A DNA stretch of 64,000 bases from an uncultured Methylococcaceae bacterium (GTDB lineage Bacteria; Pseudomonadota; Gammaproteobacteria; Methylococcales; Methylomonadaceae). The stretch spans positions 62,001 through 126,000 of the forward strand of contig CAIXAE010000003.1 in the NCBI GenBank assembly GCA_903917345.1, in the 5' to 3' direction. The notes under the pieces were generated by a model that worked only from the letters and a program-made list of their open reading frames with translations, was not told where the DNA came from and made no database searches. Made by a program: the position numbers and the translations under genes. Below are positions 14,525 to 19,628 of the stretch, piece by piece; positions within the stretch are counted from its first letter, which is position 1; each line of letters starts with the position of its first letter.

Positions 14525-14553
14525 AAAGTTGTTTAAATTGCCGGAATGATTTG

Positions 14554-17370
14554 ATGGATACAATTAGCATCCGTGGTGCCAGAACCCATAACCTCAAGAA
14601 TATTGATATTGATTTACCCCGAGACAAATTAATCGTCATTACGGGGCTCTCAGGTTCCGGAAAGTCGTCTTTGGCGTTTGATACTATTTATGCTGAAGGT
14701 CAGCGTCGGTATGTGGAGTCTTTATCTGCATACGCTCGACAATTCTTATCCATGATGGAAAAGCCTGATGTGGATCATATCGAAGGCTTATCTCCCGCTA
14801 TCTCTATAGAACAAAAATCTACTTCGCATAACCCTCGTTCTACTGTCGGTACTATTACCGAAATTTACGATTATTTAAGATTACTCTACGCGCGAGCCGG
14901 CACACCGCAGTGTCCAGAACATCATGTCTCTTTAGAAGCGCAAACCATTAGTCAGATGGTGGATTTGTTAATGGCGCAGCCACAAGAACAGCGGTGGATG
15001 TTATTGGCGCCCGTTATTAATGAGCGTAAAGGTGAGCATGCTCAGTTATTGGATGATTTAAAAGCACAGGGTTTTATTCGAGCCCGTATTGATGGAACGG
15101 TTTATGACTTGGATGATGCGCCCGAATTAGATTTAAAAAAGAAGCACACTATTGAAGTGGTGGTGGATCGCTTTAAGATTCGTGATGATTTAGCGCTACG
15201 CTTGGCAGAATCTTTTGAGACGGCTTTACGAATTGCTGGCGGTATTGCTATTGCGGTGTCTTTGGAAGATAACTCAGAAATCGTATTTTCTGAGCATTAT
15301 GCCTGTAAGCATTGTGGTTACAGTTTAACGGAATTAGAGCCGCGTATTTTTTCGTTTAATAACCCCAAAGGCGCGTGTGTCAGTTGTGATGGCTTAGGGG
15401 TTAGACAGCATTTTGATGCCGATTTGGTCGTGCATAATCCAGATTTAAGTTTGGCCGGTGGCGCTATTAGAGGTTGGGACAGACGCAATGGCTATTATTA
15501 TCAAATGATTTGCTCTTTAGCCGATCACTTTAGCTTTGACATAGAAGCGCCTTATGCAGAATTACCTAAAGAAGCCCAAGAACTCGTGCTGTATGGCAGT
15601 GGTTCAACGCCCATTGAGTTCAGGTTTTCTTCCGGTACGGGCCCCGTAAAAATTAAAAAACATCCCTTCGAAGGTATTATTGCCAATATGGAGCGTCGCT
15701 ATTTAGAAACGGACTCGCAGTTAATCCGTGATGAACTGTCTAAATATCAATCTAATCGACCTTGTACTGCTTGTAATGGTGCGCGCTTAAATGTGGCCGC
15801 ACGCAATGTGTTTATAGAAGACTATCCTCTGCATCAATTAACGCATCTACCCATTCGGAGGTCTTTAGCTTTTTTTGAGACCTTAGCCTTGCCCGGTCAG
15901 CGCGGTGAGATTTCGGTCAAGATTATTAAAGAGATTAAAGAGCGTTTAGAGTTTTTAGTGAATGTAGGCTTAGATTATTTAACCTTAGATCGCAGTGCGG
16001 ATACGTTATCGGGGGGCGAAGCGCAACGGATTCGTTTAGCGAGTCAAATTGGTGCGGGCTTAGTGGGCGTGATGTATGTGCTAGATGAGCCTTCGATTGG
16101 TTTACATCAACGCGATAATGATCGTTTATTAAAAACGCTCTTTCATCTGCGTGATTTGGGTAATACCGTGATTGTTGTAGAGCATGATGAAGACGCTATT
16201 CGTGCCGCTCAACATATTGTAGATATTGGTCCAGGGGCAGGAGTGCATGGGGGCAACATTATTGCTCAAGGCACCTTAGAAGATATTCTTAATAACGATG
16301 CATCTTTAACCGGTCAATATTTGTCCGGTAAAGTCGGTATAGACGTGCCTAAAAAATTAACGCCTGTTGATAAAAAGAAACAAATTACCGTGCGTAATGC
16401 GCAAGGGAATAATTTAAAAAATGTCGATATCTCTTTTCCAGTAGGTTTATTAACCTGTGTAACTGGAGTATCGGGATCGGGTAAATCTACCTTGGTTAAT
16501 GACACCTTATATGCCCATGCAGCGCGTTTAATTAATCGTGCGGGCGTTATTCCGGCGCCTTGTGACAGCGTTGAAGGTTTAGATCACTTTGATAAAGTGG
16601 TCGATATTGATCAAAGCCCCATTGGTAGAACGCCACGCTCAAATCCTGCGACTTATACCGGATTATTTACCCCGATTAGAGAGTTATTTGCCGCAACACC
16701 CGAAGCGCGTTCGCGTGGTTATAGCGTTGGGCGCTTTAGTTTTAATGTAAAAGGTGGGCGCTGTGAAGCCTGTAAAGGTGATGGCGTTATTAAAGTAGAA
16801 ATGCACTTTTTACCAGATATCTTTGTGCATTGTGATGCTTGCCATGGTAAACGTTATAACCGTGAAACCCTTGAGATTCGCTATAAAGGCAAAACCATTA
16901 ATCAAGTGTTGGACATGACAGTTGAAGACGCGGCCGAGTTTTTTAGTGCCGTACCCACTTTAGCTAAAAAACTGCATACTCTAATGGAAGTGGGCTTGAG
17001 TTATATCACCTTAGGCCAAAACGCGACTACGCTGTCAGGTGGTGAGGCGCAACGCGTTAAGCTAGCTAAAGAACTGTCTAAACGCGATACCGGTAAAACG
17101 CTGTATATCTTAGATGAGCCAACAACGGGCTTACATTTTCATGATATTAAGCAATTGCTTGGCGTATTACATACCCTGCGTGATCACGGTAATACCGTAA
17201 TCGTTATCGAACATAATTTGGATGTGATAAAAACCGCTGATTGGTTGATAGATATGGGGCCAGAAGGCGGTGACGGTGGTGGCGTATTAGTCGCAGAAGG
17301 TACTCCCAAACAAGTCTCTGAGAACCCTGCATCGCATACGGGCTTTTATTTAAAACGGTTTTTTGAGTAA
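14554..17370 (+). CDS. uvrA: Excinuclease ABC subunit A
   Basis: A 938-residue damage-recognition ATPase of nucleotide excision repair. It has two ABC modules: Walker [14 protein letters not shown] near residue 32 and [13 protein letters not shown] near residue 640, with signatures [12 protein letters not shown] and [12 protein letters not shown] and Walker [12 protein letters not shown] and [10 protein letters not shown]. Zinc-binding cysteine pairs are visible (CKHCG...CVSCDG and CEACKGDG...CDACHGKR). The length is normal. The ATG at 14554 is used rather than the TTG just before it. No LexA box was found upstream, so SOS control is not supported by the sequence. Confidence 0.98.
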
Positions 17371-17385: not shown

Positions 17386-17736
17386 ATGATAATGAGCGAA
17401 ACCGCTTTAACTTATTTGTATTTAACCTTCGCTATTGTGAGTGAAGTGGCCGCCACTTCAGCACTAAAAGCCACAGAACAATTCACTAAGCTTATCCCAA
17501 GCCTTATTGTCATTATGGGCTATGTGATAGCGTTCTTCTTTTTGTCACTCACCTTAAAAAACATGAGTACGGGTATTGCTTATGCAATTTGGTCAGGCTT
17601 TGGAATTGTTTTAGTCTCAATTGCCGGTTGGTTTTTCTACGGACAGAAACTTGATCTACCTGCTATTTTGGGGATTTCGTTGATTATAATTGGCGTGCTT
17701 ATTGTCAATATCTTCTCAAAAACGGTTAGTCACTGA
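17386..17736 (+). CDS. Small multidrug resistance (SMR) family efflux protein
   Basis: A 116-residue protein with four transmembrane helices. The first helix holds the essential membrane glutamate in the motif AIVSEVAATSALKATE. GTGIAYAIWSGFGIVLVSIAGW in helix 3 is a classic EmrE/QacE signature. SMR proteins are dimeric proton antiporters for cationic drugs, quaternary ammonium compounds or guanidinium. Motifs look EmrE-like rather than SugE-like, but the substrate cannot be assigned. ATG codons at 17386 and 17392 are both possible starts. It begins 16 bases after uvrA and is followed 20 bases later by another small transporter-like gene. Confidence 0.88.
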   Translation: MIMSETALTYLYLTFAIVSEVAATSALKATEQFTKLIPSLIVIMGYVIAFFFLSLTLKNMSTGIAYAIWSGFGIVLVSIAGWFFYGQKLDLPAILGISLIIIGVLIVNIFSKTVSH

Positions 17737-17755
17737 GTATTAAGAGTATTTTCTT

Positions 17756-18166
17756 ATGAATCTAGCGTTAATAATACCCGTTATAGCAACCGTATTACTG
17801 TGGGGCTGCATGGTCTTTTTACCAAAATTGGCTTTAGCTGAACTAAGCCCCCTTAGCGCCATTATCTATGAGATTTGTGGCGGCCTAACCGTAGCGGTTT
17901 TTGTACTGATCTTTATCGGTGGGCGCCCCGAATTTAATCTGCGGGGTGCGTCATTGGCTTATAGTGTTGGGATTTGTGGGTTTCTTGGGACTTTAACTTA
18001 TTTTTACGCCATTACTAAAGGCCCTGTCAGTACCATAGCCACCATGACCGCCATGTACCCGATAGTTGCCATCATCTGTGGCGTTTTCTTTTTGAATGAA
18101 ACATTAACTATTAAACAAACTATCGGCATAGGCTTAAGTTTGTGTGGGTTGATTTTATTGGTGTAA
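17756..18166 (+). CDS. Single-domain EamA-type membrane protein
   Basis: The 136-residue protein has five hydrophobic segments and one EamA domain: N-terminal WGCMVFLPKLAL, then the second half motif YFYAITKGPVSTIATMTAMYP and the C-terminal LNETLTIKQTIGIGLSLCGLILL. Most EamA transporters have two such domains in ~300 residues, so this is a half-size version that would need to dimerise. It follows the SMR gene by 20 bases. The substrate is unknown. Its stop codon is the first TAA of a GTGTAA triplicate, and the DNA downstream is eroded. Confidence 0.75.
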   Translation: MNLALIIPVIATVLLWGCMVFLPKLALAELSPLSAIIYEICGGLTVAVFVLIFIGGRPEFNLRGASLAYSVGICGFLGTLTYFYAITKGPVSTIATMTAMYPIVAIICGVFFLNETLTIKQTIGIGLSLCGLILLV

Positions 18167-18178
18167 GTGTAAGTGTAA
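18161..18178 (+). repeat. Three tandem GTGTAA hexamers at a stop codon
   Basis: GTGTAA occurs three times in a row, and the first copy is the last Val codon and stop codon of the EamA-type gene. It marks the boundary between intact coding sequence and the decayed region that follows. Confidence 0.85.
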
Positions 18179-18189
18179 GTCCAGAATAA

Positions 18190-18311
18190 ATCCTGCAAGA
18201 CTTTCCAAATTTAGAGTTACTTGATATTCAAGCCTGTCTTAAATATACGGCTCGTCGTGCAAGTTTAGAGCGATTAATTGCATGATATATTGGGTTGATG
18301 CCCAACTGTAG
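18190..18311 (+). pseudogene. Remnant of a DUF433/DUF5615 toxin-antitoxin pair
   Basis: Bases 18190-18285 read ILQDFPNLELLDIQACLKY followed by TARRASLERLIA and a stop. The pattern of an ILxDFP segment, DI, then A-L-Y-A/T matches the C-terminus of DUF433 (VapB-like) antitoxins. A TAA codon lies directly upstream in frame, so the rest of that gene is gone. An ATG at 18282 overlaps the antitoxin stop (ATGA) and reads MIYWVDAQL before a TAG; this is the typical N-terminus of the DUF5615 PIN-like toxin that partners DUF433. Nothing similar continues. I read this as the scar of a TA operon deleted on both sides. It is certainly non-functional. Confidence 0.65.
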
Positions 18312-18477
18312 TGGTAGTGGTGTGTTTATAAAGTAAGTTCAATTAAAACTCAATAAGCTGCATTTTACTATTTTTTTGTCTATCGGCCTGACTTAATCAC
18401 TTGTATGTTATGACACGGCTGCGCCAGTTTGTGACGTATATTAAGGCGTTTTATAGCCGAAGCTTTCTTTAGGTTAA

Positions 18478-18935
18478 CCTAAGCTTAGGTTCATGACATT
18501 ATGGCTTTGATAGGGGGTAACTAAAGCGAAAACACCTTAAGCTAACGCTTTCTTTACCCACATTAAAACCATGATTAATCAACTTATCGCTTTAATATGC
18601 GTAAATAAAACCTTTGTTCATAACATTAAAGCTTAGGCTTATACAATTCTGGCTTTAGTGTGGGCAACCTAAACGCCGGTTGCTGATACGCTCGTGATAA
18701 TGTGTGTAACTAACGCTTTGTTTACTTAAACCCAAGCCATGATTAATCAAATTCTCGTTACAATGTGAGTAAACAAAGCTTAAGTTCATAACATTAAAGC
18801 TTAGGTCTATAACATTATCGCTTTAATGTGAGTAACCTAAATTCCGGTTGGTGATACGCTCGTGATAATGTGTGGAACTAAAGCCTTCTTTAGCCAAACT
18901 AAAGCGATAAATCCCTAAGTCTAAGCTTTAATGTG
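18478..18935. repeat. Imperfect 168-bp tandem repeat array, about 2.7 copies
   Basis: Blocks recur with a 168-base shift: CTAACGCTTT at 18542 and 18710, CCATGATTAATCAA at 18569 and 18737, GTTCATAACATTAAAGCTTAGG at 18616 and 18784, and CCGGTTG...GATACGCTCGTGATAATGTGTG at about 18675 and 18843. The first copy is ~20 bases shorter. Within each unit a ~28-base motif resembling CGCTTTAATGTGAGTAACCTAAA recurs at spacings of about 62, 43 and 63 bases, so this is a higher-order repeat. Stops occur in all frames and no gene is seen. It lies in an 865-base gap that also holds the TA scar; 18312-18477 and 18936-19031 show nothing recognisable. Confidence 0.85.
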
Positions 18936-19031
18936 TTTTTAGCCGTCGAGACGGCCATTAAATACTTCGTTTCCTTTGGTTTGGATAAATGATCATCAAA
19001 CCAGAGGCTATCTAGTTAGTACCTCGATAAT

Positions 19032-19496
19032 TTATTCTGATTCTAAACCTAAAATAAAGGCCCATTCTTCGGCACTCACGGGCATAACCGATAAGCGATT
19101 ACCGGGCCTGACCACTGCCATACTGACTAACTCGGGTCTGGCTTTTAATTCTTTAAGTCCAATAGTACGCGAGAATTGTCTAACAAATTTAACATCAACC
19201 ATTATCCAGCGTGGGTTAGCGGGATCACTTTTAGGGTCAAAGTGATGGTCGTCTGGGTCAAAAGCAGTATGATCTGGGTAGCCTTCTTTAGCAATTTCCA
19301 TAATACCGACGATGCCGGGTTCATCGCAATTTGAATGATAAAAGAACACTTGATCGCCCAATTTCATAGCATCGCGCATCATGTTTCTAGCTTGATAATT
19401 ACGCACTCCATCCCAGGGTTCGGTTTGGTTAGGTCTTTGATAAAGATCTTGGATGCCAAATACATCCGGTTCAGATTTCATTAGCCAGTAGTTCAT
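19032..19496 (-). CDS. EVE domain protein
   Basis: A 154-residue single EVE domain, the bacterial relative of thymocyte nuclear protein 1. Signatures are MNYWLMKSEPDVFGIQDL, WDGVRNYQARNMMR, GDQVFFYHSN and GIVGIMEIAKE. EVE domains belong to the PUA/YTH-like fold and bind modified bases in RNA or DNA; the role of the stand-alone bacterial protein is not firmly known. The gene is monocistronic and sits beside the eroded repeat region. Confidence 0.9.
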   Translation of the reverse strand: MNYWLMKSEPDVFGIQDLYQRPNQTEPWDGVRNYQARNMMRDAMKLGDQVFFYHSNCDEPGIVGIMEIAKEGYPDHTAFDPDDHHFDPKSDPANPRWIMVDVKFVRQFSRTIGLKELKARPELVSMAVVRPGNRLSVMPVSAEEWAFILGLESE

Positions 19497-19598
19497 GGTC
19501 GCTTAAGTGTTAATCATAAAAAGCGATAGTTTGCCATTAAACCTTGATTTATGCACGATTTAGACGGGTGTTTTGTGGTTTGTAGTGGGATTTTAGGC

Positions 19599-19628
19599 AA
19601 AAAAAATGCGGCCTTTAGGGTCGCATTT
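19599..19628 (-). terminator. Intrinsic terminator after pdxA-rsmA
   Basis: On the minus strand AAATGCG-A-CC and GG-C-CGCATTT form a 10-bp stem with one wobble, followed by a run of eight T. It lies 80 bases downstream of the rsmA stop and is correctly oriented to end that operon. Confidence 0.8.

Follow-up and report, generated by a model that had tools for sequence, protein, structure and literature searches.

A Methylobacter-like methane oxidiser carries the scar of a toxin–antitoxin (TA) pair, flanked by uvrA and an EVE-domain gene. What remains of the pair, and how did it come to be reduced to its middle? The scar lies in a window of 64,000 nucleotides, by which we mean the whole stretch of DNA analysed here; its genome is referred to as G000, and the other genomes carry handles of the same kind. 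A preliminary description made from the letters had read it as the remnant of a DUF433/DUF5615 TA operon, and this reading is borne out by the DUF433 profile score, by identity to the toxin of the relative G029 and by the ATGA overlap of the two genes. The features of the region are as follows.

14551–17370, + strand: putative uvrA, left anchor of the insertion spot (ORF; a homologue adjoins EVE in 5 relatives)
17386–17736, + strand: SMR (small multidrug resistance) transporter gene (PF00893, E 3.1e-29)
17756–18166, + strand: EamA-like half transporter, with its stop codon from the junction sequence (PF00892, E 3.9e-20)
18159–18180, + strand: junction 1, end of EamA joined to antitoxin codon ~36 (homology edges)
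18169–18285, + strand: DUF433 antitoxin remnant, codons 36–73 plus stop, with a nonsense TAA at 18187–18189 (intact relative as query, 24.0 bits, translation)
18282–18311, + strand: putative DUF5615 toxin stub, nine codons (MIYWVDAQL), then TAG (sequence; identity to the start of the G029 toxin)
18308–18312, + strand: junction 2, toxin to repeat element (toxin homology to 18307, element from 18313; the same in the copy on contig C2)
18313–18971, + strand: 659-bp dispersed repeat element, with a 21-bp-period array (about 18440–18945) and an internal 168-bp repeat (DNA matches, autocorrelation)
18971–18972, + strand: junction 3, right end of the array joined directly to the hairpin (a 199-aa ORF resembling fibronectin, FN3-like, is missing)
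18972–19007, + strand: hairpin cctttggtttg...caaaccagagg, conserved right edge of the array-FN3 unit (fold of -14.8 kcal/mol)
19032–19496, - strand: EVE-domain gene, right anchor of the insertion spot (PF01878, E 9.4e-62)

The remnant of the pair and its left junction

On the antitoxin side, the last ~31 codons had been thought to remain. An open stretch of 31 codons is real (ILQDFPNLELLDIQACLKYTARRASLERLIA, 18190–18285, with the stop TGA at 18283–18285), but with the antitoxin of an intact relative as query the homology spans 38 codons, from codon 36 to codon 73 (18169–18282), and crosses the nonsense codon at 18187–18189. A full antitoxin ORF (about 70–80 aa) is absent from the window, which holds codons 36–73 only, interrupted by the internal TAA. 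The comparison with profiles proposed in the preliminary description gave 20.8 bits (E 3.5e-4) for the isolated 31 residues, below the Pfam gathering cut-off of 23.6 bits for DUF433 (PF04255), and 24.0 bits (E 9.1e-5; profile positions 32–55, one TAA inside) in a six-frame search of the genome, which passes it.

The nine toxin codons and the retained overlap, in agreement with that description, are read directly in the sequence at 18282–18311: the start ATG (18282–18284) overlaps the antitoxin TGA as ATGA, and the frame closes with TAG (18309–18311). A profile needs more than nine residues, and the putative stub is identified by its position, its frame and the overlap. The intact G029 toxin begins with the same nine residues and matches DUF5615 (PF18480, E 8e-24) and also PIN_10. 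Antitoxin followed by toxin with an overlap is the type II TA arrangement, and the same order is found in the loci of relatives. As the stub ends at residue 9, D35, D38, D56 and D58, which are invariant in 17 intact toxins, are absent.

No match to DUF5615 (PF18480) was found in the genome at E≤1, and the 112-aa toxin of G029 as query in G000 gave 0 matches at E≤0.001. That the repeat element simply inserted itself into the toxin gene is therefore not supported, since the remaining toxin was not found in the genome. DUF433 exceeds its cut-off at three places. The third, a gene on contig C42 (L003:1360–1668, 80 bits), may be an orphan antitoxin too, because the genome-wide search for DUF5615 came back empty. 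Searches with the intact G029 pair at E≤0.01 gave no hit in PADLOC or NCBIfam, and our literature search found no paper naming both DUF433 and DUF5615. The scar is not a chance resemblance, because the genome holds a second copy of it, with 87% identity in the antitoxin tail and 94% over the DNA of 18164–18971. It is the fossil of a known TA type, and nothing in the remnant points to a new mechanism.

The remnant most likely does nothing now. It has one visible effect, namely that the junction sequence provides the stop codon of the EamA gene. We see only a very slight chance that it persists as a short functional element, for example a leader or a regulatory RNA from the junction. The ATGA junction has been kept and the rest is gone, as such a role would have it, but an Rfam scan of 17700–19600 at a relaxed threshold returned three weak matches, all far below the gathering score, and the antitoxin remnant carries a nonsense codon.

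At the left junction, DNA homology to DUF433 loci begins at 18164, and homology to the EamA genes of G029, G021 and G013 extends to about 18162–18164. These EamA homologues end in ...ttattggt|ttga and then diverge into other DNA. The junction itself holds gtgtaa three times (18161–18178). Further upstream, G029 and G013 leave only ~24 bp between uvrA and EamA, too little for the SMR gene, which indicates that a gene was gained or lost at this same place.

The repeat element and the FN3-like family

Both genes had been described as lost from their outer sides. They are indeed cut there, but on the toxin side the cut is a fusion to a 659-bp repeat element and not a simple loss. A DNA search of 61 genomes with 18150–18990 as query returned DUF433-containing matches in five relatives (G007, G013, G029, G024 and G030), which run from 18164 to 18305–18307 and continue in sequence unlike the window's. 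Element matches without this DUF433 fusion start at 18313 in G013, G010, G029 and G021 and at 18315 in G007, and those that reach the right end stop at 18966–18971. From these recurring edges we conclude that 18313–18971 is a dispersed repeat element. At these other sites it is preceded by '...ccataaag', which in G013 and G007 lies just upstream of the start of an hsdR-type gene and in G010, by eye, before a short hsdR-like remnant. Point decay in place, in which both genes erode from their outer ends without any rearrangement, could account for the cuts on the outer sides and for the nonsense codon in the antitoxin. We consider it highly improbable, however, as the cuts are sharp homology edges, to EamA at the left-hand cut and to the array element at the right-hand one, and the latter edge recurs elsewhere; this recurring array edge at 18313 already contradicts it.

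The autocorrelation of the element at lag 21 is 0.37 (0.39 for 18440–18945), and 0 of 500 shuffles were as high. As a control, only one of 91 window pieces reached 0.34, and this was the piece holding the array; lag 21 was the best lag in 23 of the 91, at lower values. At other places the array is accompanied by an FN3-like ORF, which separates it from the hairpin in G000 C2, G013 C207 and G029; in G021 the ORF precedes the hairpin. The hairpin is the same or nearly the same after the ORF at these four places.

The FN3-like family (199 aa; loci L112–L124 and L264–L292) has 13 matches in the 2.48-Mb genome of the window at E≤0.001 and matches in 24 of 35 genomes of the genus at E≤1e-10, with up to 15 per genome. 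Upstream of the ORF, the 21-bp period exceeds all 500 shuffles in 7 of the 13 own copies (0.35–0.42) and in 16 of 25 testable copies in the relatives (27 tried, 29 fetched). By eye, the sequences of the array units differ from locus to locus. A literature search on the array-FN3 family gave nothing relevant among the matches listed, and the family is a more unusual object than the TA scar.

Two further observations were made on the element. In G029, the antisense strand of the array is a putative 131-aa ORF of heptapeptide repeats in which N, C and W are frequent (L103:5930–6325, - strand). A miniature element, in which an early and a late part are joined and the interior is missing, is found in the window's own genome (G000:C38:5075–5147, L006). 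By eye it adjoins an NlpC/P60-like gene, and longer versions lie beside such a gene in G010 (PF00877) and, by eye, in G013.

Gene order in relatives, the second copy and the proposed collapse

EVE gene matches are present in 31 of the 35 genus genomes. Among 29 EVE loci from relatives (L073–L101, with ~1.5-kb flanks, some cut by contig ends), uvrA and EVE are adjacent and convergent in five (G027, G024, G009, G026 and G014), and foreign genes therefore probably entered this spot. These gene orders agree with the earlier suggestion that genes turn over in the interval from the uvrA-linked transporters to EVE. In G021 (L074), a two-gene module, nucleotidyltransferase/HEPN-like by eye, lies between the FN3 hairpin and EVE, which suggests continued insertion at the spot.

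Read in the window's orientation, the order in G029 is antitoxin, intact toxin, ~6.8 kb of other genes, array, FN3-like ORF and EVE. The pair is ~8.3 kb from EVE, in matching order and orientation, and uvrA-EamA is on another contig. Both lie near contig ends, so that adjacency of uvrA-EamA to the EVE island is plausible. An intact pair at the same locus had been expected in sister strains: intact pairs do exist in relatives, but because the uvrA-EamA block of G029 is on another contig, the same locus is probable for its pair and unproven. On contig C72 of G013, the order is antitoxin, broken toxin, further ORFs, hsdS, hsdM, hsdR and array. Either the G029 or the G013 order becomes that of the window once the stretch between toxin codon 9 and the left end of the array is deleted. 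In G010, a 53-bp antitoxin scrap (codons ~14–31, 81% identity) lies 77 bp before the array, by eye with an hsdR-like remnant in between; scrap and hsdR-start remnant fall within 130 bp before the array. Here the same order has collapsed a second time, independently. It is not a universal order, because in G007 the array remnant precedes the pair, and this counts against the collapse model.

We also considered that array, FN3-like gene and hairpin might form an undescribed multi-copy, semi-mobile unit of Methylobacter-like genomes, a deletion hot spot that captures or dismantles neighbouring TA and restriction genes, with the scar and the G010 collapse as its products. We put this forward tentatively, as an unlikely generalisation.

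The fusion of antitoxin, toxin stub and array is not unique to the window and recurs between other genes on contig C2 of the same genome, with a PhoH gene and a UvrD/Rep helicase gene as neighbours. The C2 copy of 18164–18971 (94% identity) shows the same toxin-array fusion, keeps the FN3-like ORF and has a longer antitoxin frame (63 aa). Relative to G029, D49N and L60K are common to both own-genome copies, so decay began before copying. The C2 array is closer to that of G013 (96.8%) than to the window's (95.0%), and the sequence therefore leaves unsettled which copy is the original. For an empty C2 site sought via the helicase (28 genomes with a helicase match, own included), 0 of the 8 relatives compared match the C2 DNA upstream of the helicase; G008 has both PhoH-like and helicase flanks, with other DNA between.

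Against G029, dN/dS is 0.77 for the C2 copy and 0.52 for the window (0.70 between the two copies). For full orphan antitoxins, the values against G029 are 0.06 (G007), 0.24 (G030), 0.02 (G012) and 0.06 (G023); G013 gives 0.60 on three changes, and G003 C48 is saturated. With other references, both copies fall to 0.23 against G024 and to 0.35 and 0.29 against G030, and the window to 0.09 against G023; being reference-dependent and based on small counts, the contrast is only indicative.

The scar looks like a fossil junction, left where an island at an insertion hotspot collapsed. As a whole account, collapse of such an island between uvrA/EamA and EVE, together with copying to C2, is in our judgement likely. 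An island with a DUF433/DUF5615 pair (VapBC-type, PIN-COG2442), variable genes and the array-FN3 unit would once have stood between uvrA/EamA and EVE. One deletion, beginning at toxin codon 9 and reaching as far as the array's left end, would have killed the toxin and removed the intervening genes, as the orders of G029, G013 and G010 suggest. The antitoxin, presumably no longer needed, would then have begun to decay, and the composite of antitoxin, stub, array, FN3 and hairpin may have been copied to another site, on contig C2. At its original place, a further deletion would have taken the 5' half of the antitoxin and fused the rest to the last EamA codon, a separate one would have removed the FN3 gene, and a nonsense mutation would have finished the antitoxin. 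The deletions probably arose by illegitimate recombination at short homologies and through the recombination-prone 21-bp array.

Two further points count against collapse. Junctions 1 and 3 occur in a single genome and are known from its assembly. In addition, antitoxin dS between G029 and G013 is 0.02, compared with EVE and ksgA dS of 0.37 and 0.61 between G000 and G029 and of 0.10 and 0.06 between G000 and G013, from which it follows that the pair probably travels horizontally between lineages. This agrees with the 'mobile-gene turnover' of the preliminary description, and it means that the pair in G029 could be an independent arrival.

Alternatively, the composite could itself be mobile, with a fixed right end at the hairpin and a variable left end, as in one-ended transposition, and could have inserted ready-made at C2 and at uvrA/EVE with no local collapse. 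Array, FN3 and hairpin do occur at unrelated places, namely at EVE (G029), at a phosphoenolpyruvate carboxylase gene (G013 C207) and at the UvrD/Rep helicase gene (G000 C2), and FN3 with hairpin is found near EVE in G021; these units end at the hairpin and vary in their left flank, and the composite is present twice in G000. We nevertheless find such an arrival doubtful: the right flank, through the hairpin into EVE, is near-identical in G029 and the window, which suggests that the unit was at EVE in the common ancestor, and inspection of the ends by eye revealed neither a transposase nor terminal inverted repeats or a target duplication.

Decay of the pair in relatives and comparison with known systems

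If the island collapsed as proposed, the scar is a multi-step record of the removal of a TA pair, in which the toxin would have gone first by deletion into a neighbouring repeat and the antitoxin later. A single scan of the named genomes found 45 loci, 30 of them in Methylococcales, and toxins were surveyed in those 30. The antitoxin is full in 27 of the 30 (residues 1–73, or 3–73 in six). Two loci are broken on both sides (L240 and L257), and L247 runs off its contig. In the 27 loci with a full antitoxin, which were found via the antitoxin and are hence biased to kept antitoxins, the toxin is full-length in 17 and broken in 10, by a frameshift or nonsense codon in four (L231, L232, L237 and L239) and by reduction to a 5' stub of about 7–46 codons in six (L214, L215, L218, L219, L234 and L235). 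The nine-codon stub of the window fits this series, and its scar is a late stage of a recurrent decay of a known TA type.

The reverse search, by toxin and within the genus, found six full-length toxins of the subfamily, five of them with an intact antitoxin. The sixth, on G003 C82, has a broken antitoxin and carries D38K, a change of an aspartate that all 17 intact toxins retain. A further toxin piece (residues 18–110) lies on G012 C48. Loss of the toxin first is what addiction would predict, although the numbers are small and we make no statistical claim. The related loci, from intact pair and point-killed toxin to a stub behind an intact antitoxin and to both genes dead, form a decay series for testing the order of loss that addiction predicts.

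PMC2701414 predicted that DUF433 (COG2442) and the PIN genes beside it form a TA family, and for vapBC10 of Synechocystis PMC3834315 reports that the toxin arrests growth and the antitoxin rescues it. Stand-alone DUF433 antitoxins are listed for Synechocystis in PMC4963859. The antitoxin of the relatives has 73 aa with a DUF433 domain and a weak sequence match to PDB 2ga1 (E 1.2e-4). As described in PMC3834315 and PMC2701414, PIN-COG2442 loci share with the present ones an antitoxin first, a PIN-like toxin second and a short overlap. They differ in that the window keeps only the end of the antitoxin and the start of the toxin, and that the toxin of the relatives is Pfam DUF5615, known here from sequence. 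Orphan antitoxins are abundant in Klebsiella according to PMC7192599, and the likeness is that there, too, the toxin is lost and the antitoxin left, abundantly across related genomes. Unlike the Klebsiella orphans as described there, the antitoxin of the window is dead as well, and six related loci keep a 5' stub of the toxin.
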